Assembly: GCF_002848135.1 (NCBI RefSeq)
Contig: NZ_PKGB01000004.1
Location: 62,001-126,000 of the forward strand
DNA length: 64,000 nucleotides
Reading direction: 5' to 3'
DNA from: Hydrogenovibrio sp. SC-1
Lineage (GTDB): Bacteria; Pseudomonadota; Gammaproteobacteria; Thiomicrospirales; Thiomicrospiraceae
Part shown: one piece after another, positions 6,488 through 57,129 of the stretch
Position numbering within the stretch: position 1 is the stretch's first letter
Layout: every line of letters begins with the position of its first letter
Position numbers and translations under genes: made by a program
The notes under the pieces: model-generated
What the model saw: the letters and a program-made list of their open reading frames with translations, nothing else
Databases searched by the model: none
What the model was told of the DNA's origin: nothing

Positions 6488-6564
6488 GCGCCCATAGCTC
6501 AACTGGATAGAGCATCGCCCTTCTAAGGCGAGGGTTTCAGGTTCGAGTCCTGATGGGCGTACCA
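6488..6564 (+). tRNA. tRNA-Arg (anticodon TCT), integration target of the island
   Basis: A complete cloverleaf with encoded CCA; the acceptor stem is GCGCCCA/TGGGCGT and the anticodon loop CTTCTAA carries TCT. From base 6520, inside the anticodon loop, to the CCA, the sequence is repeated exactly at 51,367-51,411. The gene is therefore probably a hybrid: the 5' half is original chromosome and the 3' half was supplied by the integrated element. Confidence 0.97.
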
Positions 6565-6668
6565 TTACAATTTAGATTTAATTACACCATGGCGGATGTA
6601 GCTCAGTTGGTAGAGCCCAGGATTGTGATTCCTGTTGTCGCGGGTTCAATCCCCGTCATTCGCCCCAT
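6520..6668 (+). repeat. Left attachment repeat (attL) of the genomic island
   Basis: This 149-base segment (3' half of tRNA-Arg, spacer, whole tRNA-His) is matched at 51,367-51,514. The tRNA portions are identical. Only the spacer between the two genes differs (about 6575-6584), including a one-base length change. The match starts in the tRNA-Arg anticodon loop, the usual crossover place for tyrosine integrases. Confidence 0.9.
6591..6667 (+). tRNA. tRNA-His (anticodon GTG), island-side copy
   Basis: Complete cloverleaf with the extra 5' G typical of tRNA-His (paired with C73), anticodon loop TTGTGAT carrying GTG, and encoded CCA. The gene is identical to the copy at 51,437-51,513. Under the simplest integration model this left copy came with the island, and the right copy is the original chromosomal one. 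Confidence 0.96.
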
Positions 6669-6803
6669 TTTTCAATAAGTTACAAATTATTAACTCCATC
6701 TATACATTTGTAATTTATCTCAAAGATCTACTTCAAATCAATAAATTCCTACCACCTTTATAGAATCAAAAAATTGTATTCGTATCTATTAGATAATTGC
6801 TTC

Positions 6804-7176: not shown

Positions 7177-7212
7177 TTTGACGCTTTATATTTCTACATT
7201 GAGGTTTGAATT

Positions 7213-7443
7213 ATGAGTTTAACATATCTAACAACGACGGAGTTAGCCGTTCGTATCAAGTATCACCCTCGGACTATTCGTGAGACTCTACTTGATAAAG
7301 TTTTATTCGAAGGTCGGCATTATATTCGTCCATTTCACCAACGTAAACTTTTGTTTATTTGGGAGCATATTGAAAAGGACATGAAGGAAGTGCACGATAC
7401 ATTCGAAATTCCTATGGCCAATGGAGGTTACTGTTATGGCTAG
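7213..7443 (+). CDS. Excisionase-like small DNA-binding protein
   Basis: A 76-residue protein that begins with a winged-helix type segment (LTTTELAVRIKYHPRTIRET) as seen in excisionase/AlpA-like proteins, followed by the GRHYIRPF-type strand often found in such proteins next to P4-type integrases. It lies immediately upstream of the integrase and overlaps its start by 8 bases, so the two are translated together. Probable role: directionality factor for excision or regulator of int. Recognition rests on pattern and neighbourhood, not on a database hit. Confidence 0.7.
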   Translation: MSLTYLTTTELAVRIKYHPRTIRETLLDKVLFEGRHYIRPFHQRKLLFIWEHIEKDMKEVHDTFEIPMANGGYCYG

Positions 7444-8740
7444 TATTAGAAGTAGAGAAGGAAAACTTTTTTTCGATTTTTATTATAGAAAAAAGCGGTG
7501 TCGTGAATTGACTCTATTGTCATCAACGCCATCTAATCAGAAAAAACTGGCTCAGGTTCTAAGGAAAATTGAAGCTGAGATTGCACTGGGAACATTTGTA
7601 TATAGCAAATACTTTCCAAACAGTCCAAGAGTAGCAGAGTTCGAGGAAATGGATCGCATTTCTAAGCGTAAAGCTGGAAAAGGGCAGTTGTTTTCAGAGT
7701 TCGTCGCTATTTGGTATGAAGAGGTAAAGATTGGCTGGAGAGACAGCTACGATCAAACCGTTGTTAAAATCTTAAATGGCCGAATAATGGAGACTTTCGG
7801 TGATATGGATGTCAGCGAAATCACCAAAGCTGACCTTTTACAATTTCGAGCACGTCTTGGGGAAGAACCGGGTCGAAATGGTAAAAAGATGTCACCTTCA
7901 CATATCAATCGACATATGTATCTCATGCGTATGATTCTTAGGGAAGCCGCTGACAGGTTTGATTTTAATACGCCTTTCAAAGGAATAAAAGCGTTACGAA
8001 ACAATAAACCTGATATTCATCCATTTAACTTGGAAGAAGTTAATAAAATCATTAATGGTGTGGATCCTTGGTATCGATATTACTATACGGTTCGGTTTTT
8101 GACCGGAATGCGTACTGGCGAAATTGATGGTCTAAAGTGGAAATACGTTGATTTCGACAATCGTCTAATCAAGGTACGAGAATCACTGGTTAAGAATAAA
8201 CAGACCTATACCAAAAATGATTTTTCGCAAAGAGACATTGAAATGTCATCCACTGTTTTTACCGCCTTACAAGAACAATTCAAACGCAGTGGCCATTTGG
8301 ACTATGTGTTTGTTAATTCTCGTGGGGATCATTTCAATTATCACAACATTTCTAGGCGCATCTGGCACCCGCTATTAAAAGAACTGGGTTTAGAAAGACG
8401 AAACCCTTATCAAACTCGACATACGGCTGCCACGCTATGGTTAGGCGCTGGAGAAAATCCAGCCTGGATTGCAAAACAAATGGGGCACTCAACAACCGAG
8501 ATGCTGTTTCGGGTATATGCGCGTTATGTACCTAATTTAACCCGTAAAGATGGCTCTGCCATGGAGAAACTCATTTCCGGTTCGGTAGTGGTTAATAGTA
8601 TTGACGATGATCTAAATACAAATCCATATCAAGACAAGTATGCAGATCAAATAGATTCTGGTTTGGATGAATCTCACGATGAAAGTTTCTGGGGTCAGCT
8701 CTTAAACTCAGAATCGTCTGAACTAGGAGGTGAATTATGA
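7436..8740 (+). CDS. Tyrosine integrase of the island
   Basis: Site-specific recombinase that most likely inserted this element into tRNA-Arg. The N-terminal 60 residues resemble an arm-binding domain (short beta strands: IRSREGKLFFDFYYRKK). A SAM-like core-binding domain follows, and then the catalytic domain with TGMRTGEIDGL (first Arg), a lysine-rich hairpin (LVKNKQTYTKND), PYQTRHTAATLWL (second Arg) and MGHSTTEMLFRVYARY (His and nucleophile Tyr). The ATG at 7436 is preferred over 7421 because GGAGG at 7423-7427 sits 8 bases upstream of it. The length of 434 residues includes a polar C-terminal extension. Confidence 0.92.
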   Translation: MASIRSREGKLFFDFYYRKKRCRELTLLSSTPSNQKKLAQVLRKIEAEIALGTFVYSKYFPNSPRVAEFEEMDRISKRKAGKGQLFSEFVAIWYEEVKIGWRDSYDQTVVKILNGRIMETFGDMDVSEITKADLLQFRARLGEEPGRNGKKMSPSHINRHMYLMRMILREAADRFDFNTPFKGIKALRNNKPDIHPFNLEEVNKIINGVDPWYRYYYTVRFLTGMRTGEIDGLKWKYVDFDNRLIKVRESLVKNKQTYTKNDFSQRDIEMSSTVFTALQEQFKRSGHLDYVFVNSRGDHFNYHNISRRIWHPLLKELGLERRNPYQTRHTAATLWLGAGENPAWIAKQMGHSTTEMLFRVYARYVPNLTRKDGSAMEKLISGSVVVNSIDDDLNTNPYQDKYADQIDSGLDESHDESFWGQLLNSESSELGGEL

Positions 8741-9075
8741 TGCCACTTTCTAATGACTATTCTCATCGTTTTTCAAGCAACTCAACCCCGAGCATGAACT
8801 CCATTGCTGGTATTTATCCTGATTACCAGAATATACCTGACATTGAAGACCCTAGAATGGTCAAACGGTTGATTAATAACTTAGCCTATTTATTCAATAT
8901 TGAAGGGGGAGATTATTTAACGTTTATTCTTGGATATGGTCATTGCACCAGAAATGAAGATGCCTTGCGCTATTGGGTGATTGATCAATTACAAGATATT
9001 TCAATCAACCAAGATGATGTAATGAATGTTCTAGTCGATCACTTAAGAACTGAGTTAATGCGGGAGGATTTTTAA
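8737..9075 (+). CDS. Hypothetical protein after integrase
   Basis: A 112-residue protein of unknown function. The start overlaps the integrase stop (ATGATG), and the stop overlaps the start of the next gene, which has GGAGG upstream. The N-terminal 30 residues are Ser/Asn-rich and probably disordered. The rest looks helical and acidic (DPRMVKRLINNLAYLF; DQLQDISINQDDVMNVLVDHL). No family is recognised. The tight coupling suggests a role with the integrase or the HD protein. Confidence 0.75.
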   Translation: MMPLSNDYSHRFSSNSTPSMNSIAGIYPDYQNIPDIEDPRMVKRLINNLAYLFNIEGGDYLTFILGYGHCTRNEDALRYWVIDQLQDISINQDDVMNVLVDHLRTELMREDF

Positions 9076-10944: not shown

Positions 10945-11019
10945 CCGTTTTTGGTCATACTCCATGTTAAGGTCTGAAAAATTGGCTCTGCACTGTTAAC
11001 CGTGCAGAACCATGGATTA

Positions 11020-20443: not shown

Positions 20444-20486
20444 ATAACCGTTTTTGGTCATACTCCATGTTAAGGTCTGAAAAATT

Positions 20487-20514
20487 GGTTCTGCACTGTT
20501 AACCGTGCAGAGCC
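20487..20514. terminator. Hairpin between convergent antitoxin and lipoprotein genes
   Basis: GGTTCTGCAC (20487-20496) pairs with GTGCAGAGCC (20505-20514) with one G-T pair; an 8-base loop contains GTTAAC. There is no T run, so termination strength is uncertain. An equivalent hairpin lies at about 10984-11011 in the left repeat. Confidence 0.5.
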
Positions 20515-20522
20515 ATGGATTA

Positions 20523-26242: not shown

Positions 26243-26462
26243 GACATTGCCATTATTTATTTCTACCCACCAATCAATACAACGCTTATGACCTTTAAAG
26301 GCGAGTCGTATTACAAAATCACGATTGCCATAGTCCTGTTCAATGTAGTGGCGAACAAACGGCGCAAATCGATCTGAATATTGCAAAATGGGTTGTATCT
26401 CCGGTGATTTGTGTAATGTTTTCGGGTAGAAGGAATAGATAACGCCATCAAACCCCAGTTGT
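26243..26462 (-). pseudogene. Internal fragment of the luxR-type gene (second repeat copy)
   Basis: Encodes in frame about 73 residues matching residues 24-96 of the regulator at 22,489-23,241 (LGFDGVIYSFYP to WWVEINNGNV). Both the start and the DNA-binding part are missing. Same orientation as the full gene, so it forms a direct repeat of 220 bases (offset 3,292). Confidence 0.85.
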
Positions 26463-28009: not shown

Positions 28010-29392
28010 ATGTTGGAATCAAATCGAAGAAATTTATTTAAAAAATCTATAGTAGCGCTGGCAATTTCTGCCAGTATTATCAGCTCTCCTGTCTATGCAG
28101 AATTAGGCTATCCAGAAAAAGAAGATTTGAAATTTGGCTTTATTAAATTAACGGATATGGCGCCCTTAGCCGTTGCTTACGAAAAACGTTTTTTTGAAGA
28201 TGAAGGGCTTTATGTTCAGCTAGAGGCCCAGGCGAATTGGAAAGTTCTATTGGACAGAGTCATTGATGGTCAGCTAGATGGAGCTCATATGCTAGCGGGT
28301 CAGCCAATTGCCGCAACTATAGGGTATGGCACCAAATCAAATGTCATCACCCCTATTTCAATGGATTTAAACGGTAATGCAATCACTGTTTCGAATAAAA
28401 CGTGGGCAGCGATGAAACCCAATGTTGAAATGGAAAACGGCCAACCTAAGCATCCAATCAGTGCGTCTACATTAAAGCCTGTTGTGGAGTCTTATAAAAA
28501 TGCTGGCAAAGCATTTAAGATGGGAATGGTTTTTCCGGTTTCAACGCATAACTATGAACTACGCTATTGGTTAGCAGCAGGAGGGCTTAAACCGGGTTAT
28601 TATGCGCCGCATAAAGGGGATACGGCAGGAACACTAAATGCAGATGTCTTACTTTCTGTGACGCCCCCGCCACAAATGCCTTCCACGATGGAAGCCGGCA
28701 CAATTGAAGGCTATTGTGTCGGAGAGCCGTGGAATCAGCAAGCGGTTTTCAAGGGCATCGGGGTACCCGTTATTTCCGACAATTCAATTCAAAAAAACAA
28801 CCCAGAAAAAGTCTTTGGTTTAAGAGAAGATTTTTATAAACAGTACCCAAATACAACTATTCGTATCGTCAAAGCCATGATTCGAGCCGCTAAATGGCTG
28901 GATGAAGAAAACAACAAAAACCGTCCAGAAGCGGTCAAGATTTTATCTAAATCCAGTTATGTGGGGGCAGACTATAAAGTCATTGCCAATTCAATGACAG
29001 GGACGTTTGAATATGAAAAAGGAGACAAGCGCTCCGAACCGGATTTCAATGTTTTCTTCCGTTATAACGCAACCTATCCCTATTATTCCGATGCCATTTG
29101 GTATATGACGCAAATGCGCCGTTGGGGACAGATTTCAGAGTATAAGCCGGATACTTGGTATCAGGGTATGGCGAAAAAAGTCTATCGTCCTGATATTTAT
29201 AAAAAAGCGGTTGAGGCCTTAATTGAAGACGGTGTGATGAAAAAATCCGACTTTGATAATGCCGTTTTTACAACGGATGGTTATCGAGGTGTGCAAGATG
29301 ATTTTATGGATGGCATACCTTATGACGGATCAACCCCTAATGCATATATTGATAGCCTGAAGATCGGCCTAAAAGGCAAAGAAAAACTGTAA
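28010..29392 (+). CDS. nrtA: NrtA, nitrate ABC transporter substrate-binding protein
   Basis: Periplasmic binding protein for nitrate (NrtA/CmpA family, 460 residues). The N-terminus has a twin-arginine-like motif (NRRNLFKKS) and hydrophobic segment ending VYA, so Tat export is likely. Family features: GFIKLTDMAPLAVAYEKRFF near residue 43, DGQLDGAHMLAGQP near 86 (ligand loop), and VGEPWNQQA near 239. It is the first structural gene after the leader terminator. A stem-loop after the stop (29,404-29,429) may keep its expression above that of nrtB. Confidence 0.95.
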   Translation: MLESNRRNLFKKSIVALAISASIISSPVYAELGYPEKEDLKFGFIKLTDMAPLAVAYEKRFFEDEGLYVQLEAQANWKVLLDRVIDGQLDGAHMLAGQPIAATIGYGTKSNVITPISMDLNGNAITVSNKTWAAMKPNVEMENGQPKHPISASTLKPVVESYKNAGKAFKMGMVFPVSTHNYELRYWLAAGGLKPGYYAPHKGDTAGTLNADVLLSVTPPPQMPSTMEAGTIEGYCVGEPWNQQAVFKGIGVPVISDNSIQKNNPEKVFGLREDFYKQYPNTTIRIVKAMIRAAKWLDEENNKNRPEAVKILSKSSYVGADYKVIANSMTGTFEYEKGDKRSEPDFNVFFRYNATYPYYSDAIWYMTQMRRWGQISEYKPDTWYQGMAKKVYRPDIYKKAVEALIEDGVMKKSDFDNAVFTTDGYRGVQDDFMDGIPYDGSTPNAYIDSLKIGLKGKEKL

Positions 29393-29403
29393 GTAAATTG
29401 TTT

Positions 29404-29433
29404 GCAGGTTCTTTCTTTTATGAACCTGCTTTT
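29404..29433 (+). terminator. Intercistronic stem-loop between nrtA and nrtB
   Basis: GCAGGTTC (29,404-29,411) and GAACCTGC (29,422-29,429) form a perfect 8-bp stem followed by four T. Such hairpins after a binding-protein gene often limit read-through or protect the upstream mRNA, giving an excess of binding protein. The effect here is inferred. Confidence 0.65.
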
Positions 29434-29453
29434 AAGAAATAAAGGTAAGTTAT

Positions 29454-30452
29454 ATGAACCCTTTAAAATGGTCACTTGTTGAGCCTTTTTATAAACTCCT
29501 TATTGGTGAAGACCGAAAAGGTCAAATCAATAATATTACAAAAATGATTGGATTGCCCATAGCAGGCCTGGTGGTTTTTTTGCTCATTTGGCAAGGAGCA
29601 TCCTCCAATATTCATACTTCTCTGGGACAGTTTCCTGGTCCAGTACAGACCTATGAGCAATTTATCTCCTTACAAGAAGAAGCTGAGGCATCTGCATTAA
29701 AAGAAGAAAAGTTTTACGAGCGCCAAGCAGAACGTAATGCGCAAAGAGTTGAAAAAGATCCGGGCTATGTTCCGACGATTAGAGATTACACTGGGCCACC
29801 AACGTTCTTTGAACAAATAGGTCGAAGTTTGGTGACAGTGATGAGTGGGTTTTTTTTGGCCTCTATCATAGCCATTCCAATTGGGATTGTCATTGGATTA
29901 AGTGCCAATGCCTATGCCGCGGTCAATCCTTTGATCCAAATCTTTAAGCCTGTTTCTCCACTTGCCTGGTTACCGCTGGTTACTATGGTCGTATCTGCGG
30001 TTTATGTGACAGATGATCCTGCATTTGACAAAGCCTTTCTAAACTCGATGTTTACGGTTTTATTGTGTTGTTTGTGGCCGACGATCATCAATACTGCAGC
30101 TGGTGTGGCGACGGTTACTCAGGACTTGAAAAATGTAAGCCAGGTTTTACGTTTGAGCTGGTGGACACATGTCAGAAAAATCGTTTTACCGTGCTCTATT
30201 CCTATGATGTTTACAGGCTTGCGAATTTCACTAGGGATTGCCTGGATGGTGTTGATTGCAGCTGAAATGCTGGCTCAAAACCCAGGCCTGGGTAAATTTG
30301 TATGGGATGAATTTCAAAATGGAAGCTCCAACTCTCTGGGACGTATTATGGTCGCTGTCATTATGATTGGGATTGTTGGATTTATTTTAGATCGCGGCAT
30401 GTTGATTTTGCAAAAAGCAGTGTCGTGGGATAAGTCTGTCACATTACGATAA
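29454..30452 (+). CDS. nrtB: NrtB, nitrate ABC transporter permease
   Basis: Inner-membrane permease of 332 residues. After the first membrane helix (about 30-50) there is an unusual charged, periplasmic stretch (about 75-115, ALKEEKFYERQAERNAQRVEK) that is found in proteobacterial NasE-type permeases. The later part has the five-helix transporter core and the EAA-type loop (LRLSWWTHVRKIVLPCSIPMMFTGLRI) that contacts the ATPase. It lies 61 bases after nrtA with AAAGGTAAG upstream and is followed by the ATPase gene 20 bases later. Confidence 0.95.
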   Translation: MNPLKWSLVEPFYKLLIGEDRKGQINNITKMIGLPIAGLVVFLLIWQGASSNIHTSLGQFPGPVQTYEQFISLQEEAEASALKEEKFYERQAERNAQRVEKDPGYVPTIRDYTGPPTFFEQIGRSLVTVMSGFFLASIIAIPIGIVIGLSANAYAAVNPLIQIFKPVSPLAWLPLVTMVVSAVYVTDDPAFDKAFLNSMFTVLLCCLWPTIINTAAGVATVTQDLKNVSQVLRLSWWTHVRKIVLPCSIPMMFTGLRISLGIAWMVLIAAEMLAQNPGLGKFVWDEFQNGSSNSLGRIMVAVIMIGIVGFILDRGMLILQKAVSWDKSVTLR

Positions 30453-30472
30453 ACCGGGGTAGGAGAAAGAAA

Positions 30473-31267
30473 ATGTCAGAAGTTCATTTGGAATTAACAG
30501 ATGTTGGGATAGAGTTTCCAACCCCTAAAGGACCTTTTAGAGCCTTAGAAAAAGTAGATCTAAAAATAAAACAAGGTGAATTTATTTCCCTGATTGGGCA
30601 TTCAGGTTGTGGAAAATCGACGGTATTAAATATTGTAGCAGGTCTTTATGAAGCCACTGAAGGCGGTGTATTGTTGGATGGGAGAGAGGTCAATGAACCA
30701 GGGCCAGAAAGGGCTGTTGTCTTTCAAAACCATTCGTTACTGCCTTGGTTAACAGCATATGAAAATGTGGAATTAGCCGTTGATCAAGTGTTTAAAAGAA
30801 GCAAAACCGCATCAGAGAAAAAAGAGTGGATTGAACATAACTTAAAACTGGTTCATATGGATCATGCCATGCATAAAAGACCTGATGAAATTTCAGGCGG
30901 GATGAAGCAGCGTGTCGGCATTGCTCGGGCATTGGCGATGCAACCTAAAATCATGCTAATGGATGAACCTTTTGGCGCTCTGGATGCACTAACCAGAGCG
31001 CATTTGCAAGACTCCTTAATGGAGATCCAGAAGGAGTTAAACAATACTGTCATTATGATTACGCACGATGTGGATGAAGCGGTTTTACTGTCGGATCGCA
31101 TTGTGATGATGACTAATGGCCCAGCAGCCAGTATTGGTGAAATATTAAGCGTGGATTTACCTCAGCCAAGAGATCGTTTAGCCCTAGCAGATGATCCGAC
31201 TTATAACCATTATCGTTCTGAAGTGTTGCGTTTCTTGTATGAAAAGCAGCGCAAGGTTAATCATTAA
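30473..31267 (+). CDS. nrtC: NrtC/NrtD-type nitrate ABC transporter ATPase
   Basis: Cytoplasmic ATPase (264 residues) energising nitrate uptake with NrtA and NrtB. Seen: Walker A GHSGCGKST (about 42-50), Q-loop VVFQNHSLLPWLTA, signature ISGGMKQRVGIARALA, Walker B KIMLMDEPFGALD and switch MITHDVDEA. It has the short NrtD/NasD form without the binding-protein-like extension of cyanobacterial NrtC. GGAG at 30,463 precedes the ATG. Only one ATPase gene is present, so it probably acts as a homodimer. Confidence 0.94.
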   Translation: MSEVHLELTDVGIEFPTPKGPFRALEKVDLKIKQGEFISLIGHSGCGKSTVLNIVAGLYEATEGGVLLDGREVNEPGPERAVVFQNHSLLPWLTAYENVELAVDQVFKRSKTASEKKEWIEHNLKLVHMDHAMHKRPDEISGGMKQRVGIARALAMQPKIMLMDEPFGALDALTRAHLQDSLMEIQKELNNTVIMITHDVDEAVLLSDRIVMMTNGPAASIGEILSVDLPQPRDRLALADDPTYNHYRSEVLRFLYEKQRKVNH

Positions 31268-31282
31268 GGAACGGGTGATCTT

Positions 31283-32494
31283 ATGAAACCGAAACTTATT
31301 TTAGTCGGGACAGGAATGGCAGGAACGCGTTTTCTTGAACACTTGCTGGAAGAAGCGCCGGATACCTATGAGATCGAAGTATTCAACAAAGAACCTGTCG
31401 GGGGATACAACCGTATCATGTTATCTCCGGTATTGGCTGGCGAAAAAACAATCCCAGATATTATGACCCATGATGAGGCCTGGTTTGAAGAACAGAGAAT
31501 ACGTTTGCACACTGGCAAAACGGTTTCAGCGATTGATTCAGTAGGACAAGTTCTCACAACCTTTTGTGGCGAGACATACTTTTACGACAAACTCGTTATC
31601 GCAACAGGCTCTAACCCTTTTAAATTAGAGATACCCGGTGCTGATTTACCGGGTGTTGTAACGTTTAGAGATATTCGTGATGTCGAAAATATGCTATCGG
31701 TTTCCGAGAATAAGAATAAAGCCATTGTCATTGGTGGGGGGCTACTAGGGTTGGAAGCCGCCCATGGCTTAATAAAAAGGGGGATGGATGTCACCGTTAT
31801 TCATAGAAACGAAGTGCTGATGAATGTGCAGATGGATAAAGAATCCAGTCAATTGCTAAAGAACCATCTCGAACAGGACTCGAATCATTCACCTGGAATG
31901 AAGTTTCGTTTAGGCGTCAATACCACCGAAATTTTAGGGCAACAACAGGTTGAAGGCATTCGGTTAGATGATGGGGCAGAAATTGCAACCGATCTGGTGG
32001 TCATGTCGATAGGCATTCGCCCCAACATTCAGTTAGCCAAGCAAGCCAATCTTGATGTTAATCGAGGTATTTTGGTGAATGATTATCTTGAAACCTCAGC
32101 CGAAAATATTTACGCGCTAGGTGAGTGCAATGAACATCGTGGTCAAACCTATGGTCTTGTTGCGCCACTGTATGAACAGGCTAAGGTGCTGGCGAAGAGA
32201 TTGGCCGGACAATACGTGTCTTATAAAGGTTCCATTACCTCTACGATGCTAAAGGTTACCGGGGTGAATTTGTTTTCTGCTGGAGATTTTAAAGGGGAAA
32301 ACGGAACGGATGTGATTGTGTTTAGAGACCTAGCAAAAAATATTTATCGGAAAATTGTATTAAAAAACAATCAGGTTATTGGAGCGCTTTTATTTGGTGA
32401 TACCACCGGCGCCACTTGGCTATTTGAGCTGTTACAAAAAAAACAAAATATTTCCTCAATGCGAGAAACCTTGGTTTTCGGTCCGGGTTATTGA
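31283..32494 (+). CDS. FAD/NAD(P)-dependent oxidoreductase, NirB N-terminal-like (NasB-type)
   Basis: A 403-residue pyridine-nucleotide-disulfide oxidoreductase. Two nucleotide sites are seen: VGTGMAGTRFLEHL near the N-terminus (FAD) and VIGGGLLGLEAAHGL near 150 (NAD(P)H). Other family segments are NRIMLSPVLAGEK and IYALGECNEHRGQTYGLVAPLYEQA. It closely parallels the first 400 residues of the adjacent NirB. In nitrate clusters such proteins pass electrons from NADH to the nitrate reductase NasA, the role proposed here by context. It starts 15 bases after the ATPase gene. Confidence 0.88.
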   Translation: MKPKLILVGTGMAGTRFLEHLLEEAPDTYEIEVFNKEPVGGYNRIMLSPVLAGEKTIPDIMTHDEAWFEEQRIRLHTGKTVSAIDSVGQVLTTFCGETYFYDKLVIATGSNPFKLEIPGADLPGVVTFRDIRDVENMLSVSENKNKAIVIGGGLLGLEAAHGLIKRGMDVTVIHRNEVLMNVQMDKESSQLLKNHLEQDSNHSPGMKFRLGVNTTEILGQQQVEGIRLDDGAEIATDLVVMSIGIRPNIQLAKQANLDVNRGILVNDYLETSAENIYALGECNEHRGQTYGLVAPLYEQAKVLAKRLAGQYVSYKGSITSTMLKVTGVNLFSAGDFKGENGTDVIVFRDLAKNIYRKIVLKNNQVIGALLFGDTTGATWLFELLQKKQNISSMRETLVFGPGY

Positions 32495-44872: not shown

Positions 44873-45727
44873 TTGAAAGGTTTTAAAAAATTTGATATTG
44901 TAAAAATTGACGGAAAGGAAGCCTTGATTATCGGGCTCGTTCCTAACGAGATTTTCAGCTCAACCGATGGAAAACTTTCATTCACACCTAAGACCTTGTA
45001 TGATCATGCCGAATTCACATTGAAAATTCTTGGTGGAAAAAAGCACATCAACTTCGATCTGCAGGCCTATTCTTTTGGTGAAAAACTCTACATCATTTCT
45101 ACAAACCTCAAACTCAAATCCGAGCAAATAAAATCGAACATCCAAAGCAAGCTAGATTCAGCGAAAAAGAATGCTAGTTTGATTCTAGAAAACAGCGGTC
45201 AGGAAAGCCAGAAAACCGTTTTCCTACCAGGAGATCTGCGCGAAGATCCAGAAAGGTCAGGTGATCCCGAGTTGATTGATGGTAAGTTGACTGTCAAAAA
45301 CAACATAGAAGTTCAAACTCTTCTCGAGATTCAAACAGAGCTAAAAAAGCGTGATGTAGTAATTGACGGTCAAACTTTTGAAAAAATCCCAAAAGACGGA
45401 AATCTTTTCTTAGCAAAGGAAGATTTAAGGGATATGAATCAAACAGTTGAACTTAAAATTGAGGCAATTGATTTTTCTAAAACACGACCAATTTTTAAAT
45501 TTTCAATTGTTGACAAATCGATACTAGAAAAAAACAAGCAATTGGTCAAAGTGAAGCTAGTCGAATCGCTAATGGATTCACAGGAGCTTCTTGAGCTGAT
45601 CTCTGACTTAAAATTTCCACCTGATGAGCGTCCAACTTTCACCGCTGAGTGCGACCTTGAAAAAATCTATGATGAAAACAAAGGCTTGGTTACTATCAAA
45701 GCAATTACTCTCAAAAAAATTATTTAA
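44873..45727 (+). CDS. Unknown protein convergent with the giant recombinase-like gene
   Basis: A 284-residue soluble protein without known motifs. The TTG at 44873 is taken as start because AAAAGGAG lies 7 bases before it. Two halves both show beta-rich, charged segments (FDIVKIDGKEALIIGL; VELKIEAIDFSKTRPIFKF; LVTIKAITLKKI) and each ends with a short I/V-rich strand, suggesting a repeated small domain joined by a polar linker (about 95-140). No signal peptide, membrane segment or cysteine is seen. It is the only gene paired with the giant recombinase-like gene and shares its terminator. Confidence 0.7.
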   Translation: MKGFKKFDIVKIDGKEALIIGLVPNEIFSSTDGKLSFTPKTLYDHAEFTLKILGGKKHINFDLQAYSFGEKLYIISTNLKLKSEQIKSNIQSKLDSAKKNASLILENSGQESQKTVFLPGDLREDPERSGDPELIDGKLTVKNNIEVQTLLEIQTELKKRDVVIDGQTFEKIPKDGNLFLAKEDLRDMNQTVELKIEAIDFSKTRPIFKFSIVDKSILEKNKQLVKVKLVESLMDSQELLELISDLKFPPDERPTFTAECDLEKIYDENKGLVTIKAITLKKII

Positions 45728-45823: not shown

Positions 45824-48800
45824 CTATAAAAGGCCTTTCAAAACACTAAAGAAAACACCATAGCCTAGGCATTTTTTACAGGTCAAACGATTTTTTGACT
45901 CATCTTTTGAAACTGCCACAGAGACTAAAAACTCTGTGAATGGGATTTGAGTATCATCAATTTTTCTTTCATCTTTCACCCAATGATCTCCAAAATGAAT
46001 TGTCTCAATTTCGTCTTGACTTAATTTTATGCCAATTAATTTAATTTGTAATTTTGACTTGCCATTAACAAAGCCTTCAAACAGTCCAAGCATTTCTTCA
46101 AGTTTGTTTTGAGAGGAAAAATGCCACTCGCCATTGCGTTTAATAACTTCTTTAACCTGGGATTTCCACAGTTTGTAGAAGTTTGATTCCGTAGTGATTT
46201 TTGACTTTATTGATGAGTCTGTTATTGATGCCCTAAGATCTTCAAAGCGTATTTTTTGCCATTTTTTATGATTCAGGTTGGCGAATGTAAGTCGCTTTAT
46301 GAAATCTTCCTCAAGTTTATTCGGGATTATCTGTCCATCAAATATATCCAATAATAATTGGTTGTAAGCTTCCTTGATATATGAAATCGTTTCAATCGGT
46401 ACGAAGGTTGAATCATTGATTGCTTGTTGTGAATACTGCATACTTAGGAGAACAACAACTTGTTCAAGTTTTTCAATAGACACTGATGTTGTTAGAAAAG
46501 AGGTATTTATTGGGGTACCCCAATCGCAGTCTAATTGCGGATCATAGATGACTGAGCTGAAATGATGTGCGTATGTGTATTCTGGGTATCGGCGTAAATT
46601 ACGAATGGTGCTTTCAGATACTTTTTTCGACGTGTTCAAACTTTTTAGTCGTCGTTTATAGTGAGCTTGCTGCTCAAGTAGCCGTTCTGAAAAATAGAAA
46701 TTGGCGAGTTCTAACGTTAAGGCATAGGATTCAAAAGTTGTTTGGGGCGAAGTGTGGCCAATGTAGTTGGCTAATATCCAAAACTTTTGATGCGGCTCAG
46801 CACTTTCGATTTGTTGTTGAAAGACTGGATTTGCATCTGATTCTAAGCCAGCTTCTTTAATAATCCATTCGTTATTTTCAAGAAATGTGAGCCTTAAAAA
46901 TTGAGTAGAAGCAAAGGTTTTTCTCAGCGATTTAATGGTTAAAGCTTCGCCAGTGACATTCTGCAACAGATTGGTTAAATACTGGTTTACACTCTGTTTA
47001 AGGCTTTTTGGTTTAATCCTCTCCTTAAAGGAAAATAAAAATGGTCTTTTCGGGTCATTAGAGTGGCACTTATTGATTAACTCTTCTAGCTGTTGAATTT
47101 CTTCATGATTCAAAAGCTGACTATAGGGTAGTAACCGGTTACTGGCTTGACGTTTGAGTGATTGGTTTCGATTGCCATGTAAATGAATATATTTTTCTTG
47201 GAGGTTAACATCTTCTGGTGTGATATAAAAAATTTCCGAAAGACGAAAGCCCAGTTTTGCATAAAGAATCAGTGCAACCGCCAAGTGCTGCTTGTCTTCA
47301 CTTGAAATGTCGTCGTCATCTGAAATGGCTTCACAACATATCCTTAAAACTTCGGGTACTGCTATACTTTCAATTCTAGACCGTGCAATGGCTCGGCCAC
47401 CTTCAAAATGTAGTGGTACAAAATCAAAGTTTTTAACCAAACACTGGTGAAAGTCTTTCAGTTCAGAGGTGTAAAGTCTCTGGTCCAAAGAAATGGTTTT
47501 TTCCATTTCCTCTAAGATTTGCGGATAGATGTCATACTGCAGTGTTTCATCATCAATATCTTCAATATCACTGTAATCTTGAAAGCCCAACAAAATAAAT
47601 TTAAAAATTCGATTGTAATAATCAAGAATAGATCCCAAGCGAAGTCGCCCTTCATGAAGTCTGTCTTTCAACCAAAGCACCAATAAGCCTGTCACAAGAT
47701 CGAGACTTGGGTGTTGCTTTTCGAGTTCATTAATTAAGGTTAGCGTTTTTGCATATTCCAACTTTTGCTCTCTAGCCTGGTTAAGTGTTTTTTTAAGCGA
47801 TTTAAAAAAGTCTGAACTGCTGTTTTTCGAGACTGATGCTTCTAAAGTCTGATTATGGTTATTTGATTTTATTGGACTGTTTAAGGGTGTAACTGTTTTC
47901 CTGGGTAAGCCTTCAAACAGGGCGAATAGGGCATCTTTTCCAACGCCACTTTGTAAGCTAGGTGTCTGGCAATAGTGGTTGAGATAGCTGGGTAAGTGAA
48001 CTTGAAAATAAGCATTAAGTTGTCTAATCAAGGAATATAGTTTGGGGAAATGATTCTCTGACAACCAGTTGTTTATATCTGATTCATCAAAAGCATTTAA
48101 AGCTTCAGAATCTTCAATATGTTGAACAATAACGGTGCTCAGGCTGCTCAGTATCCAAGGACGATCTCCAATAGGTGCGGTAATGTTGGTAGCTAAAGAG
48201 AATTTGAATTGGCTGAACGCAGCTTTTGGAATATTTAAAATCTCAACCAGATGCTCTCTAATTCTGACATTTCCTGAAAATAATGCTGATACAGCCAATA
48301 TCACTCTCAATGTTTTTTGGTCTTGTATTGCTTCTAAGCTTTTAGCGCCATAAAAGAGAAGGCTTAATTTCTGATAGTGCCTTTCGCCTTCCTGATAAAG
48401 GTTTGGAAAATGCCAGTCAAAGGGACTTTTTCTGACAGTTTTCTGCTCTATTCTCCAGTCGGAATATTTTTTGTGAAAATCATAGTATTTCAAAAGCTTC
48501 CGGTGAGTATTATTCGGAAAAGAAGATTTGATGGCTTGGGAGTGTGATTTCTGTGTCGCTAAATTGACACGCACCGAGATTGGAGGTGATTTATCACGAA
48601 AGAGAATATGATTTATTTGTTGTAAATCTTCATCTGAAATCTGTGATCTTCTGTCAGATAACCGTTTAAATGGGCCAAGTTTCCAAGGTTTGTATTGATA
48701 TGTTAAAGGGGTACTAATAGGGTAGAAGCGTTTTGTCCTTGGAGTAAAGGGGATAATCTTAAGCTCGTTGAAAAGTTCATCCAGATAAGGCCTCAGTATA

Positions 48801-51100
48801 TTTTCTTGTACCACCGGACTGTAATCCAAATTTGGCGAATATGACTCTAACCCTTTTATGATGTGGCCCATTTGAGCAGCAATATGAATTCGAGGAACCT
48901 GCTTTTCTGCCATATAGCTTGATAGCAAATGGCGGTAAAAATTATCCTTTAACGCAATACCAGAAATGCTTTTGAAATAGTCTTGAATATGCTTTTTAGA
49001 AATGGGCTGAAGGGTATTGTTTTCAATATAGAAGAATAATGCTAGGCCAGACCTGAAAAGCTTTTTGGAAGACAATAGGTCTTTGAATGCATTTGTTAGT
49101 TGTTTATTCTCGGATTTTTCAAGTATGTTCTCAAATAATTTTAAATGCTTGCAATAAGCGGAAAGCTGTTCGGTGCAAGTATCATTTATCACTGATAGGC
49201 GTCCTTCGACACCTTTCTTAATAACTTTTTCTGAGATCTGAACCCATCTCTCATCAATAAAGTTTTGTAACGAGAAGTAGGGGTCTTGATGTGGCCTATG
49301 GGTCGTGGCAGTATTTAGTATTGATACAGTATAAAGTGCTAATTCATTATGGTATTCAGCCAAAGCTTCCGGCGTTGAGATTTTGACTTGATCCAGCTCT
49401 TTCAGGCGCTTGCGTGTTTCTCGAAAAAAAGTTTTGACATGATTGTCGAGTGGTCTCTTTACGGAACCCGTTAGTAACTTGTCATTCTGATCAATCTCAT
49501 AAAAAACAGCCTTTTTAAAAACTTGCTTGCTGGTGTTTAAAAATAAATTTTGTAACTCTGTTATCTGAAGCTCAGTGTAGTAGGTTCCCATGTGCAGCAA
49601 AGGGTAACTTCCTCCGTGCAAATAGGCTGTTTTTACTTCATCTCGACAATTAAGCTGGATATTCTGCCATAAATAGTCATTGATTTTTTTGGGTGTAATT
49701 CTGTATTGTCGATAGCCCTCAAACTGCTTCATGCTTTTGGCATTATCAATAGACTTTGGATGAAGTACTTTGTCTAAACAGATTTCTCCAGAATCAGCTG
49801 ACTCTTTGAGAGTTTGTAGCAGGTCTGCAACCCTTCTTTCTAACGGTATTGGTGTGTGAAAATAAAACACCGTTGAATCATCAATTAAATCCTGCATTGG
49901 CGATGGAAAATGGACTATCTTCAAATCAAGATCAATTACAACTTGACCAATCATTTTACTGGCTGTAAAGTCGATACCAGGCGTTCCAATTAAACAAGAT
50001 TTAATATTGTTTAAAGGCATGGAGTAGTAAAGCATTAATGCCCAGCATAGCCTAGTAGAAAGCTCTTCATTTGAATCGATATTCGGATCGTTAGATGTGT
50101 CGTACTCTTGATAAATTGCATCTTCAACAGAAGCAACTTCACTGTCGGTTAATATGCTTTTTGTGTTCTTTAAAACATGAGATTCACCTTCTAACTTCTG
50201 GTACCGCTGATTAACCGTTTTCAGAAATGCAGCGTTTTCTTTTTCAACGTCATCCCCAAATATGTATTCGCTTTCAAGCTCTTTGACGACGTCTGTTTCA
50301 GTTCGAGATGGTAGATGAATAACCGGTGTTTCTAATTGAGACCTTACCGGAAAAGCTTGAAACCTTGGAGGAGAGGCATTTTCTTTTCGTTCGTTGGCAG
50401 TGTCAGTGATGGTAATGAGTTTGTTTAAGAATTTCTTTTGTAGGTCTTCGAGATGCTCGGATAATTTTTCGTTGCCTTTTAACGATTTTATTAGCTCGGA
50501 AACATCAAAGCTTTGGTTGTCAGGGTTTTCGTTGATGTAATTATTTACAAGGGTTCTAAACCCTTCTTGCCAATCAATTGCATAGGATAGTTTTCTGATC
50601 TCGTCGCAATGATTTTTTATCGTTTTATAAGGTTCCTCAATGTTTTGAGTCAAATTTATGATTACAATATTAATCATAGCGTGCGTAAGCAGCGGTATAT
50701 GCGATGGGTGATTAGGGTCAATTTTTAAGGTAAAGCATTCAGAAGTGTGAGAGGGGATACCTGCAAATAGTCCAAATACAGGATTTAAATTAAATTTGTC
50801 ATTTTCAACCCAGAATTCTCCTGACTTGTGACGTTTAGCAGTAGAGCCAAATTTATCCAATAATGGATTCAACTCTATCTCTTTGAAAGCCAACTCAAGC
50901 TCTTGAAAAATGACTATCTGCTTATCATGTACTGCTAGAATATTCTTGAGCGTATTGACCGCAAGTTTAAGATTATAGATATGTTCGTTTGTAAGATTTA
51001 AGGCTAGAAGTACTTGTCGAACAGAATAGGCATTGATTGGAATATTAGAAGCTTCCAGGATAGAGTTCACATGTTTAGTCAGGGCTTCTTTGGCAGTCAT
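45824..51100 (-). CDS. Giant (1,758-residue) protein with two tyrosine-recombinase-like regions
   Basis: One uninterrupted frame from ATG 51100. The C-terminal third holds a tyrosine recombinase catalytic domain: first Arg at 1286 (KLGFRLSEIF), a basic hairpin (NQSLKRQASNRLLPY), KSLRKTF with Arg1393 (Lys where His is usual), and YIGHTSPQTTFESYA with His1449 and Tyr1459. A second, degenerate region lies at 715-760: YRHLLSSYMAEKQVPRIHIAAQ (Arg723; 20-residue limit observed from RHLLSS on), MGH with His746 and Tyr754 in ESYSP. The N-terminal 700 residues match nothing known to me. The protein ends with a CKKC pair. The gene begins 266 bases from the right attachment repeat and is transcribed into the island. 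Confidence 0.8.
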   Translation of the reverse strand: MTAKEALTKHVNSILEASNIPINAYSVRQVLLALNLTNEHIYNLKLAVNTLKNILAVHDKQIVIFQELELAFKEIELNPLLDKFGSTAKRHKSGEFWVENDKFNLNPVFGLFAGIPSHTSECFTLKIDPNHPSHIPLLTHAMINIVIINLTQNIEEPYKTIKNHCDEIRKLSYAIDWQEGFRTLVNNYINENPDNQSFDVSELIKSLKGNEKLSEHLEDLQKKFLNKLITITDTANERKENASPPRFQAFPVRSQLETPVIHLPSRTETDVVKELESEYIFGDDVEKENAAFLKTVNQRYQKLEGESHVLKNTKSILTDSEVASVEDAIYQEYDTSNDPNIDSNEELSTRLCWALMLYYSMPLNNIKSCLIGTPGIDFTASKMIGQVVIDLDLKIVHFPSPMQDLIDDSTVFYFHTPIPLERRVADLLQTLKESADSGEICLDKVLHPKSIDNAKSMKQFEGYRQYRITPKKINDYLWQNIQLNCRDEVKTAYLHGGSYPLLHMGTYYTELQITELQNLFLNTSKQVFKKAVFYEIDQNDKLLTGSVKRPLDNHVKTFFRETRKRLKELDQVKISTPEALAEYHNELALYTVSILNTATTHRPHQDPYFSLQNFIDERWVQISEKVIKKGVEGRLSVINDTCTEQLSAYCKHLKLFENILEKSENKQLTNAFKDLLSSKKLFRSGLALFFYIENNTLQPISKKHIQDYFKSISGIALKDNFYRHLLSSYMAEKQVPRIHIAAQMGHIIKGLESYSPNLDYSPVVQENILRPYLDELFNELKIIPFTPRTKRFYPISTPLTYQYKPWKLGPFKRLSDRRSQISDEDLQQINHILFRDKSPPISVRVNLATQKSHSQAIKSSFPNNTHRKLLKYYDFHKKYSDWRIEQKTVRKSPFDWHFPNLYQEGERHYQKLSLLFYGAKSLEAIQDQKTLRVILAVSALFSGNVRIREHLVEILNIPKAAFSQFKFSLATNITAPIGDRPWILSSLSTVIVQHIEDSEALNAFDESDINNWLSENHFPKLYSLIRQLNAYFQVHLPSYLNHYCQTPSLQSGVGKDALFALFEGLPRKTVTPLNSPIKSNNHNQTLEASVSKNSSSDFFKSLKKTLNQAREQKLEYAKTLTLINELEKQHPSLDLVTGLLVLWLKDRLHEGRLRLGSILDYYNRIFKFILLGFQDYSDIEDIDDETLQYDIYPQILEEMEKTISLDQRLYTSELKDFHQCLVKNFDFVPLHFEGGRAIARSRIESIAVPEVLRICCEAISDDDDISSEDKQHLAVALILYAKLGFRLSEIFYITPEDVNLQEKYIHLHGNRNQSLKRQASNRLLPYSQLLNHEEIQQLEELINKCHSNDPKRPFLFSFKERIKPKSLKQSVNQYLTNLLQNVTGEALTIKSLRKTFASTQFLRLTFLENNEWIIKEAGLESDANPVFQQQIESAEPHQKFWILANYIGHTSPQTTFESYALTLELANFYFSERLLEQQAHYKRRLKSLNTSKKVSESTIRNLRRYPEYTYAHHFSSVIYDPQLDCDWGTPINTSFLTTSVSIEKLEQVVVLLSMQYSQQAINDSTFVPIETISYIKEAYNQLLLDIFDGQIIPNKLEEDFIKRLTFANLNHKKWQKIRFEDLRASITDSSIKSKITTESNFYKLWKSQVKEVIKRNGEWHFSSQNKLEEMLGLFEGFVNGKSKLQIKLIGIKLSQDEIETIHFGDHWVKDERKIDDTQIPFTEFLVSVAVSKDESKNRLTCKKCLGYGVFFSVLKGLL

Positions 51101-51366
51101 GTCTTATAGCTTCTGGGTAAAAACTGGTGTTAAGTGGATGTGGGGCGAGGTTCATAGTAACATAATGCTTTTTTCTATCCGAGCTCTTTTTTGATCAAGA
51201 TGTGCCACATTAGACAAGATTTGGTAGTGAATTGGTGAGTAATTTGATAAATAGCATATATATCAATCATTTGTATAAATTTGGTGGGCGGATATTAGCC
51301 TATAATCAGACTTATAAATGGTTTGACCAGGGTGTAGTTGGGTGTTTTTTATTAAACTAAATCACA

Positions 51367-51411
51367 CTTCTAAGGCGAGGGTTTCAGGTTCGAGTCCTGA
51401 TGGGCGTACCA
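51367..51411 (+). pseudogene. 3' half of tRNA-Arg (TCT)
   Basis: Identical to bases 6520-6564 of the intact gene; begins at CTTCTAA of the anticodon loop and keeps the T arm and CCA. It cannot fold as a tRNA. Under the integration model this is the displaced original 3' half. Confidence 0.92.
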
Positions 51412-51436
51412 TTACAATTTAGTTTTTTCACACCAT

Positions 51437-51513
51437 GGCGGATGTAGCTCAGTTGGTAGAGCCCAGGATTGTGATTCCTGTTGTCGCGGGTTCAATCCCC
51501 GTCATTCGCCCCA
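51437..51513 (+). tRNA. tRNA-His (anticodon GTG), chromosomal-side copy
   Basis: Complete cloverleaf identical to the gene at 6591-6667. It lies just right of the tRNA-Arg fragment, the original order Arg-His being kept on the chromosome side. Confidence 0.96.
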
Positions 51514-51514
51514 T

Positions 51515-52145
51515 ATTTATGCTTTTAATTCAAAAAATTAAAAGAATCGATACTCTAAGTTCTTACCTCGTTTTAATCCCAAAAAGCTTCTCACACTGTT
51601 ATTTTCTTAGTTTGGTTAAAATTTACTTATACCCACTCATTCAAAGATGCCACATTTCTGTACGAGTCTAAGCATTTATATTGTTTGCTTTTGAAAAAAA
51701 CTGATTCCACAGATGTTATGGTTATGGATTATTCCAAATCGGAAATAAACTAACTTGTGCTGATCAAGTGATTGTTGATTGTTTAAAGATCAGGCGTGAA
51801 CTGGCAAAAATAAATTACATACCAATTTATAAGTTCTAAGAAGTCATATTTCGTCCACGAATTTTTAATGCGGTATATAGAACCGACAAAACGGCAAATG
51901 GTGATCAGTCGCCAATAGGGTATGAGAATTCGCTAGGAAAGGTGTCATGTTTAAGTTGACTTAAAAAGTACAGTAAACTAAGTCATTAAAGGGTATTTTT
52001 AATATGGTATATTAATATTCTTGAGTATCTTATTATCAGCCATAAAGTCATGTTTCAAGTTTTGATATTGTATATTTTGGCGCAATAATGGTGCTATGAA
52101 ATCCCAATTGATAGGCTACTGTGTCCATCCCTAAAACTCTATGAA
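51515..52145. other. Intergenic stretch right of the island
   Basis: About 630 bases of A+T-rich sequence with no supported gene, terminator or repeat. It probably includes the promoter of the GGDEF-EAL gene, which cannot be placed confidently. Confidence 0.45.
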
Positions 52146-55104: not shown

Positions 55105-55779
55105 TTAAGCAGTTGGTTCTACTTCAACTTTTTCTTCTGTTTGATTGTCTGTTGCTTCAGCTTCATCTAAAGGTGGCAATCCTAAGAATTCTCGTCTGAA
55201 GTTTTCCATGCCTTTGTTGACTAGGTCTGTGGTTGCGGTAAAGGTGTCTTTGACTTTGCCGTCAAAGACTTTCAGGTCACTTAAAATGCCCTGGGCTTCA
55301 TCAAATCCTTGTTGTAAGCCACCACCGACCACATCCATAAATTTGGTCATTAAGGCTTCACCTTCTAAATCTGGATTCGCTTTTTGAAAAGCCGGTAGGA
55401 AAGCGGTTGCGCCATTGACAATTCTGCCAGCCGTGTTTTCAGGTGTCCAATAATCCATGCCGCCTTGTTTTTTCAAGGCTTCTTCACTGATTGCATTTTC
55501 ACCTAACTGTGGGGTTAAGGCTTCGTTTAATTTATCGATGGCCGCTTGATAGGTCATCTTTAAGGTGCTTTCAATAGATTGGTTTGGATCGCCAAAAAGG
55601 TGAGCGACTAGGCTCGCTTGTTTGTCATTACGAATGGTTACCTGGTCAGCAGTCAGTGGGCTATTTGCTTGATTTTTTTGTGCGTTGCTGACGCCAAAAT
55701 CCATTTTCGAGTCTTGTGCCGAATGTTTCTGGTATACATTATATCCGGCTGGAATGGCTGGAATGGTTGGTGTAGACAT
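55105..55779 (-). CDS. DUF5610-like hypothetical protein
   Basis: A 224-residue soluble protein. The central part (about 55-190) fits the DUF5610 pattern: LTADQVTIRNDKQASLVAHL, IDKLNEALTPQLGENAISEE, YWTPENTAGRIVNGATAFLPAF and MDVVGGGLQQGFDEAQGILS. Disordered, polar ends (Gln/Asn at the start, Glu-rich at the C-terminus) flank it. No signal peptide. Function unknown. AAAGGAAAATGCC precedes the ATG. It is a single gene with its own terminator, in the opposite direction to prfB. Confidence 0.75.
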   Translation of the reverse strand: MSTPTIPAIPAGYNVYQKHSAQDSKMDFGVSNAQKNQANSPLTADQVTIRNDKQASLVAHLFGDPNQSIESTLKMTYQAAIDKLNEALTPQLGENAISEEALKKQGGMDYWTPENTAGRIVNGATAFLPAFQKANPDLEGEALMTKFMDVVGGGLQQGFDEAQGILSDLKVFDGKVKDTFTATTDLVNKGMENFRREFLGLPPLDEAEATDNQTEEKVEVEPTA

Positions 55780-56033
55780 GGCATTTTCCTTTTCTAGTCA
55801 AAGGGAGCTTTTTGATTAATCTAATTTGAATTATCATTATTTTTATGTACAAATTCAATGGCCAGATTGAAAAGTGTTAGGCTCCATAGTTGTTAACGGC
55901 CACTTTAATATTAACTTGAGCACTTTTTTTAAAAAATTGACAAAGTAGTTGTTAAAACCTGATGTCACTGGCTGATAAATGCTGTGATTAATGTTATTAT
56001 TCCGCTTTTTATTTTGAAAGCTGAAAAGGCACT

Positions 56034-57129
56034 ATGGAATTAAATCCCGTTTACACTCAGATTAAAGATTTTATTGAGCGCACTCAAGTGCTTAGGGGGT
56101 ATCTTTGACTATGATACCAAGCAAGAACGATTAGTCGAAGTTATTCGAGAGTTGGAGTCGCCAACGGTTTGGAATGAACCTGAAAGAGCGCAAGCCCTCG
56201 GCAAAGAAAAGTCCCAGCTTGAAAAAGTGGTAGAGACCATTGATGAGTTAGGAAGCAGTTTAGCTTCGGCGCAAGAAATTTTGGAAATGGCCGAAATGGA
56301 CTCCGATCAAGAAATGGTGGATGAGGTCATTTCGGAATTGTCTCGTTTAGAGGGTAAACTGGATGAGCTTGAGTTCCAAAGAATGTTTTCGGGTGAACTT
56401 GATGCCAATAATGCCTATTTGGAAATCCAATCGGGTTCCGGTGGTACGGAAGCTCAAGACTGGGCGAATATGATTTTGCGTATGTATTTGCGCTGGGCTG
56501 AAAGCCACGGCTTTAAAGCAGAAATTTTAGAAGTTTCTGCAGGGGATGTGGCCGGTATCAAAGGCGCGACCGTGCATATCCAAGGTGACTATGCTTTTGG
56601 TTGGTTACGAACCGAAACTGGCGTGCATCGTTTAGTGCGTAAATCGCCCTTTGATTCGGGAAATCGACGCCATACCTCCTTTGCCTCAGTCTTTATTTCC
56701 CCTGAAATTGATGATAGTTTTGAGGTGGATATTAATCCAGCAGACCTTCGAATTGATGTCTATCGCGCCAGTGGTGCAGGCGGGCAGCACGTAAACAAAA
56801 CAGAATCGGCGGTGCGCATTACCCATTTGCCGACCAATACCGTGACGCAGTGCCAGAATGGTCGTTCACAGCATCAAAATAAAGCAGAGGCGATGAAGCA
56901 GCTTCGAGCCAAACTCTATGAATTAGAAATGTTGAGCCGCAATGCTGAAAAGCAGCAGCTAGAAGAGAGTAAGTCGGACATAGGATGGGGCAGTCAAATT
57001 CGTTCCTACGTATTGGATTCTGGCAGAATTAAAGACTTGCGAACCAATGTGGAAACCGGCAATACCAATGCGGTTTTGGATGGCGATTTAGACCAATTCA
57101 TTATCCCCAGTTTAAAAGCGGGAATTTAG
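56034..57129 (+). CDS. prfB: Peptide chain release factor 2 with programmed +1 frameshift
   Basis: Terminates translation at UGA and UAA. The first frame runs from ATG 56034 through 24 codons to an in-frame TGA at 56,106-56,108. The slippery site AGG GGG TAT CTT TGA C (56,094-56,109) matches the classical autoregulatory element: the Shine-Dalgarno-like AGGGGG and CTT-TGA-C allow a +1 shift, after which reading continues at 56,107. The full product is about 364 residues. It contains the GGQ motif ([17 protein letters not shown]) and the RF2 anticodon-like region ([13 protein letters not shown]). Followed by lysS after 95 bases. Confidence 0.97.
56091..56109 (+). promoter_or_regulatory. Programmed +1 frameshift site of prfB
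   Basis: CTT AGG GGG TAT CTT TGA C: an internal Shine-Dalgarno-like stretch, the CTT slippery codon and a UGA-C stop context. Low release factor 2 favours the shift and raises RF2 production. Confidence 0.96.

Follow-up and report, generated by a model that had tools for sequence, protein, structure and literature searches.

A 1,758-residue fusion of two recombinase-fold proteins at one end of a tRNA-flanked genomic island in Hydrogenovibrio sp. SC-1

Locus features

The window is the whole stretch of DNA that was analysed, 64,000 nucleotides of contig NZ_PKGB01000004.1 of Hydrogenovibrio sp. SC-1, numbered from its first letter. It contains a genomic island lying between two partial copies of a tRNA block, with a tyrosine integrase, a small protein and an HD-domain protein encoded beside the left copy and one very large protein encoded on the other strand beside the right copy (Table 1). 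A sequence-only reading of this DNA had reported the large frame and proposed that it may be a fusion of cooperating recombinases; the frame was confirmed as real and runs without interruption for 1758 codons (5.3 kb) on the minus strand. The attL/attR repeat of that reading is also present, as pieces of 66 and 96 nt that are 95-96 % identical, and the right repeat lies about 260 bp from the start of the large gene. A scan of the ORFs between 11747 and 43816 identified a cargo of multicopper oxidases, a heavy-metal-type P-ATPase, a nitrite reductase, a molybdopterin oxidoreductase and cofactor genes. The island also holds two near-identical repeat pairs (10545-11131 with 20047-20634, and 22951-23170 with 26243-26462), which are perhaps copies of insertion sequences.

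Table 1 Features of the window discussed in the text
Feature	Position	Strand	Basis
Left repeat, 3' part of tRNA-Arg plus tRNA-His, taken as attL	6514..6672	+	
Arm-DNA-bind_2 (PF12167) tyrosine integrase, 439 aa, beside attL	7421..8740	+	Pfam
Small protein, 112 aa, between integrase and HD gene	8737..9075	+	Weak phmmer matches only
HD-domain protein, 320 aa	9075..10037	+	PF01966, E 6.1e-6; TraI_2, E 1.4e-5
Fused B-C protein, 1758 aa	45824..51100	-	B profile at residues 526-797 (250 bits) and C profile at 1139-1499 (323 bits), the window being among the rows of both profiles
Predicted C2 domain, residues 1139-1499	46604..47686	-	Pfam, PHROG_1, PDB-sequence match, residue counts
CN region, residues 804-1134, possible eroded recombinase-like domain, weak	47699..48691	-	hhalign CN-C2
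Predicted D2 domain, residues 546-783	48752..49465	-	AF2 model, VIA, residue counts
D1 region, residues 300-535, possible eroded recombinase/topoisomerase-IB-like domain	49496..50203	-	VIA, hhalign, Tyr508
Right repeat, 3' part of tRNA-Arg plus second complete tRNA-His, taken as attR	51361..51518	+	

Relatives and fusion

The N-terminal and C-terminal halves of the large protein are designated B and C. Relatives were tabulated as 81 loci, in which the window and near-copies were kept, L025 and L026 lie on one contig, and L030 and L115 are very probably one record. Profiles of B, C and the integrase, with at most 15, 14 and 6 rows respectively and the window included, were run on all ORFs of at least 80 aa. 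B and C are separate neighbouring genes on the same strand in 57 loci and fused in 17, and C stands alone in seven, of which four run off the locus start and L116 begins close to it, in contrast to L076 and L111. Spacing in the split loci is between -244 and +75 nt in 54 of 57, the exceptions being L026 (410), L082 (790) and L088 (4895); the two genes overlap in 41 and are separated by -4 to +4 nt in 28, and since gene starts were set mechanically the large overlaps are probably overstated. Complete-looking B proteins have 743-966 aa and C proteins 732-1207 aa, with a few shorter. The fused loci are the window, L024 (G144:C4), three of Arenicella (L030, L114 and L115), in which the N-terminal part of B is a separate frame of 521 aa, L034 and nine more of Acinetobacter, L094 of Thiomicrorhabdus marina and L098 of Roseateles.

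The adjacency in 57 loci and fusion in 17 bear out the earlier proposal as far as fusion is concerned, and it is strongly supported that the 1,758-residue protein is a head-to-tail fusion of two recombinase-fold proteins that are separate neighbour genes elsewhere; cooperation between them, the other part of that proposal, we infer only because the halves adjoin or are fused across loci. Residues 1 to about 795 correspond to B and about 795 to 1758 to C. This division follows from the distance between the start of C and its first catalytic arginine, which is R491 in the unfused C of L010 and R1286 in the window, a difference of 795. B of L010 ends 43 residues past its last catalytic histidine (788 of 831), equivalent to about residue 790 of the window protein, so that the two estimates indicate a direct end-to-end join.

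The whole protein used as a query matched three of 55 relatives and five of 369 genomes of the class, its own genome included in both counts, and the remaining matches were each confined to part of a single half, N or C. The unfused C of G144 matched nine of the 369 genomes, own included; two of these nine, G039 and G231, are short matches to other recombinase-like genes, that of G231 lying in a trio resembling recombinase-in-trio (RIT) elements. No match to the whole window protein was found among plasmids and phages at 1e-5 or in the genome_contigs collection, nor to C of L010 in viral_contigs, while a scan of genome_contigs with one degenerate motif returned at least 66 loci. The loci are mostly proteobacterial, and the few assemblies labelled Nitrospirota, Acidobacteriota and Bacteroidota may reflect contamination, as they are metagenome-assembled.

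In a tree of 61 rows, from which 11 near-identical rows had been removed, the fused proteins fall into two groups, one of G144:C4 with Acinetobacter and the other of the window with T. marina, Roseateles and G175, all rows of the latter having long branches. The tree requires two changes of fusion state (two to three across bootstraps). A single origin of all fusions was not rejected by an AU test (p 0.459). The window protein is highly divergent, with at most 22 % identity to any row of the tree and an end branch of 2.18. The genome to which G000:C20 (L025 and L026) belongs has two B-C copies about 19.1 kb apart whose ORF lengths and scores are equal; another B-C pair and a PF12167 integrase share that contig.

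The C half

Tyrosine recombinases share the catalytic motif R-K-[HK]-R-H-Y, and across 63 aligned rows the C half conforms to it. The full set in the C2 domain of the window is R1286, K1316, R1322, K1390, R1393, H1449 and Y1459, and all of these except position 1390 are invariant in 63 of 63 rows, including the arginine, histidine and tyrosine named in the earlier reading (Arg1286, His1449 and Tyr1459). That reading had also remarked on a lysine in place of histidine; position 1390 is His in 62 of the 63 rows and Lys in the window. The Pfam Phage_integrase model matches best at residues 1266-1398 (E 6.4e-10), the PHROGs integrase PHROG_1 at residues 1104-1398 (E 6e-17), and the C profile matches 4a8e among PDB sequences (E 4.5e-7); C also matches general recombinase models in NCBIfam and PHROGs.

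The B half

The second domain of B, D2, is predicted to be a tyrosine-recombinase catalytic fold in which only the tyrosine and the first histidine of the catalytic set are missing. An AF2 model of residues 1-830, calculated from a 60-row alignment, has a mean pLDDT of 67.5, with ten-residue blocks at 63 to 94 in residues 541-750 and 49 to 89 in residues 301-510. Residues 546-783 of the model take the recombinase fold (VIA Z 14.9 and rmsd 2.5 over 170 aligned residues of XerA, 4a8e), and so include the 700-760 region to which a second recombinase domain had been assigned. Its RH (723) and MGH (744-746) motifs are present as described, and R723 and H746 are found in all 60 rows. The domain does have a recognisable first Arg box, contrary to the earlier description, as R602, like K625 and R634, is present in all 59 rows that have a letter there. 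Asn replaces the first His in 57 of 60 rows. Tyr754, formerly proposed as a second nucleophile, lies in a column that is Trp in 39 of 60 rows, and no conserved Tyr occurs within 20 residues past H746 in the 60 rows, 19 of which have none there. A Ser at position 758, 12 residues past the last catalytic His of D2 and near the expected place of the nucleophile, is conserved in 57 of 60 rows and is Leu in the window.

Database searches with B gave generic matches. Foldseek returned nothing at E 0.001 against the PDB (best 4a8e, 0.015) or against a viral library (best an integrase, 0.011). No Pfam or NCBIfam family covers B in the 60 members; the commonest NCBIfam model, a weak recombinase match, is found in eight of 60 rows (best E 5.6e-4), and two Pfam recombinase models match four and three rows (best 2.6e-4), besides scattered unrelated ones.

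The region before D2 may be a third, eroded domain of recombinase or topoisomerase-IB type (residues 310-505), in which only Tyr508 is invariant. The modelled residues 310-505 align with the variola type IB topoisomerase (2h7g) with a VIA Z of 8.3 and rmsd of 4.0 over 153 residues, and with the human and vaccinia enzymes with Z of 7.1 and 5.1, the unrelated last rows scoring 4.2-4.3 and these D1 values being near the level at which VIA warns of common arrangements. In the same comparison further topoisomerase IB chains aligned with D2 rather than D1. In 36 rows Tyr508 is the sole invariant column of D1; the residue is kept in all 57 rows that have a letter there, and in all 13 rows of another set that overlaps the first. 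The variola alignment stops three residues short of it, and we take Tyr508 to stand about where type IB topoisomerases keep their nucleophile. The 700-residue N-terminus, described earlier as uncharacterised, thus includes a stretch, about 310-535, that resembles an eroded catalytic domain.

Profile comparison by hhalign gave a 157-column alignment of D1 with C2 in which the Arg-box regions coincide, although the box of D1 is without its Arg; its score of 30.0 (E 0.0013) was reached by none of 60 column shuffles (maximum 13.0), this null being lenient because it also destroys helix periodicity. The score of D1 with D2 was 16.2, equalled by one of 60 shuffles and not above chance, that of D1 with the integrase 17.5, and that of D2 with C2 only 19.6, so that the method has little power even where both folds are recognised as recombinases. 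For the control regions BN and CC, scores with each other and with the remaining regions were 9.7-16.5. Against PDB sequences the D1 profile found no recombinase, and mostly inositol-monophosphatase matches. The CN region scored 24-26 with C2 (E 0.0097, column-shuffle maximum 15.4) and had no recombinase among its PDB sequence matches; a single-sequence model of residues 781-1360 has a pLDDT of 33, too low for a reading of CN.

These features raise the speculative, on balance improbable, arrangement of a divided active site in B, in which D1 would give Tyr508 and D2 the remaining residues, within one chain or across subunits. If CN were a fourth, likewise eroded copy, the fused chain alone would be equivalent to a recombinase tetramer with two unequal active sites.

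Companion genes

Integrases of the PF12167 type (profile above 100 bits) were found in 28 of the 81 loci, six of the 28 having supplied the profile and several Marinobacter-type loci being near-copies. The integrase is convergent with C in 22, the other six being L026, L065, L068, L070, L071 and L073. An HD gene, sought with a profile built from the window (9075-10037) and L010, accompanies the integrase on the same strand, no more than about 350 bp away, in 15 of those 28 loci. Eight genomes that had been chosen for their B or C genes hold between none and three PF12167 matches each, 11 in total, of which six are inside examined B-C loci and five elsewhere. In T. marina (L094, 14102-16631) two overlapping integrase genes are followed by an HD gene, opposite the fused B-C gene, and the DNA upstream of the outer integrase gene is 69 % identical over 420 nt to window positions 6969-7383.

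The 112-aa protein between the integrase and HD genes belongs to no family in Pfam or PHROGs, and phmmer relates it only weakly (E 0.001-0.03) to nine ORFs from other loci, 94-130 aa in length. A small gene of at least 120 aa that overlaps or adjoins the start of B, designated gene A, has candidates in 45 of 69 loci, not counting two HD genes and the N-parts of Arenicella; none is present in the window. The candidates form several groups without mutual similarity, and an assignment as ParB-like was dropped, as no such Pfam match was found in nine proteins. The other neighbours of B and C in L010 are a 158-aa gene and an HD-domain gene. The 284-residue ORF convergent with the fused gene (44873-45727), for which homologues accompanying those of the fused protein had been envisaged, matched only itself among the ORFs of at least 80 aa in L001-L117; as it has no relatives in other loci, nothing ties it to the system.

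Island ends

The tRNA cluster was found in 11 of 11 genomes of the genus, own included, and a gene like that at 5302-6156 lies beside the tRNAs in four of four relatives examined. A gene like that at 55105-55779, which in the window is beyond the island, is on the other side of the 5302-like gene in G003, G008 and G006, and the window thus carries a rearrangement in addition to the island. Relative to the 55105 gene, the block of the 5302 gene and tRNAs is inverted in comparison with G008 (window 5302-6667 and 55105-57129).

Motifs of the tRNA T-arm were found in the 2.5 kb upstream of B 14 times, in 11 of 69 loci, against 3.7 expected (Poisson 3e-5), a density about four times that downstream of B, near-copies such as L030 and L115 being counted. 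Twelve of the 14 are on the strand opposite B. A complete tRNA within 3 kb was found only in the window among the 69 loci. In L010, 47 nt located 189 bp upstream of gene A look by eye like the 3' half of a tRNA and have one further copy in G260 and another elsewhere in G144; ARAGORN found no tRNA in L010. No direct or inverted repeats of at least 11 bases joined the chosen flanks of six loci, and a tolerant repeat scan of four of these (L010, L027, L029 and L035) and of L080 gave none above shuffles. No clear empty site was found in the genera of G144 and G058, with two genomes each.

Interpretation

The reading that we consider probable is that the protein is a fusion of B and C, and that B, C, a PF12167-type integrase and an HD-domain protein jointly serve a single family of genomic islands as its recombination machinery. 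As the integrase recurs with B and C, mostly in convergent orientation and often with the HD gene, the attL integrase and the attR giant appear to mark opposite ends of a single system. The layout of the window, with integrase and HD gene at one tRNA repeat and B-C at the other, repeats parts of the pattern seen elsewhere and favours this reading, as co-occurrence only. In such a system C would cut and rejoin DNA at the island end next to its gene. B might bind the partner half-site and hold the scissile phosphate uncut, or cut only with a tyrosine from elsewhere, and a non-cutting role of B would limit cleavage to one strand or one site. Fusion would fix the ratio of B to C at 1:1, and the small integrase might act with B and C or at the tRNA site.

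The evidence does not favour the second integration system or nested element suggested earlier, and that two independent or nested elements met here, a PF12167 integrase having made the tRNA-His island and the B-C fusion having come from another element at its right edge, appears unlikely. The distance between integrase and giant, about 36 kb in the window where only about 10 kb of flank was seen elsewhere, speaks for two elements and against a single system, as does the lack of an integrase in view in 53 of the 81 loci, although many of these are cut by contig ends or the 10-kb flank. The enrichment of the T-arm motif upstream of B and the tRNA-like piece of L010 speak for a single system. 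The six integrases that are not convergent, the T-arm motif upstream in only 11 of 69 loci, the complete tRNA near B in the window alone and the lack of end repeats in the loci scanned also weigh against one system, several such systems can share one contig (G000:C20), and in L094 nitrate-assimilation DNA, which is cargo here, sits across the fused gene from the integrases. Against these points stand the integrase in 28 loci, 22 of them convergent, the HD gene beside 15, and the rarity of PF12167, six of whose 11 matches in eight genomes fall in examined loci. Window positions 28093-31513 are 74 % identical to DNA about 2.3 kb from the T. marina fused gene.

A somewhat smaller chance is given to the giant being a dead or decaying recombinase kept by chance, with B never more than a DNA-binding part. 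The long branch, the missing gene A candidate, Lys1390 in place of the first His and Leu758 where Ser stands in 57 of 60 rows would suit a decaying copy and tell against the one-system reading, but the 5.3-kb frame is intact and the protein retains R1286, K1316, R1322, R1393, H1449 and Y1459, that is, the C residues except the His, together with the five D2 residues and Tyr508. It is very improbable that an error of sequencing or assembly has made one frame out of two overlapping genes. The genome is a draft of 41 contigs, and the common overlap of -4 puts B and C in different frames, so that one base could join them; however, fusions occur in 17 loci, including plasmid records and several separate Acinetobacter assemblies, and the T. 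marina fusion is placed near the window in the tree (94/88, with long branches). One island family using B, C, the integrase and the HD-domain protein is retained as the best explanation.

Comparison with known systems

No specific model for B or C was found in Pfam, NCBIfam, PADLOC or PHROGs, PADLOC returned nothing for the window protein or for B and C of L010, and searches of open-licence papers found no description of the pair. RIT elements have three adjacent recombinases of ordinary size; B-C has two genes, and these are very large, so that assignment to this type was rejected. A RIT-like trio of 411, 316 and 353 aa is present in L031. The gamma-mobile-trio is likewise a genomic island with a gene trio including a recombinase, and had been mentioned earlier as a possible relation. 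Kinship is not borne out, as a trio of this type in G144 scored at most 9.3 bits with the B and C profiles (C profile to GmtY), GmtY having been identified by NF040693 (508.6 bits) and its neighbours of 908 and 200 aa having been assigned as GmtZ and GmtX from their positions, and no Gmt-named NCBIfam model was among the matches of 60 B rows or 13 C rows. That trio (441, 908 and 200 aa) lies in L123 (G144:C9), and G144 also has split and fused B-C systems.

SE elements (PMC9345347, PMC10214605) have a single operon intA-tfp-intB-srap, and resemble the present system in combining an ordinary recombinase with one whose N-terminus is long, a recombinase-fold protein whose catalytic motif is incomplete, and a small protein. 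In the GInt operon ginABCD, as described in PMC5385486, three recombinase genes occur with GinC lacking the first Arg; several recombinase-like proteins plus a small one, one of them incomplete, are again a likeness, and by this description GinC is set apart from B, which keeps the first Arg and is without the Tyr. The GInt layout of three adjacent recombinase genes was rejected for B-C, which by profile is a module of two adjacent or fused genes, though a divergent third gene could be missed. The B-C system thus resembles SE and GInt in its list of parts; sequence likeness is absent for SE-6283, whose proteins scored at best 4.0 bits with B and gave generic scores only with C (IntA 18.5 and IntB 5.7 bits).

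In Flp-type trans cleavage the active site is built from two chains or domains, and IS110 reportedly has a composite active site of this kind; in B, by comparison, the R/K/R/R/H set and Tyr508 would lie on successive domains of the same chain. The pair described here, two very large recombinase-fold proteins, was found unnamed, with natural fusions and, in some loci, with tRNA pieces beside it. The complementary residues of D1 and D2 bear on whether tandem domains can share a recombinase active site, and on how cutting is kept to one strand where an element has several recombinases.
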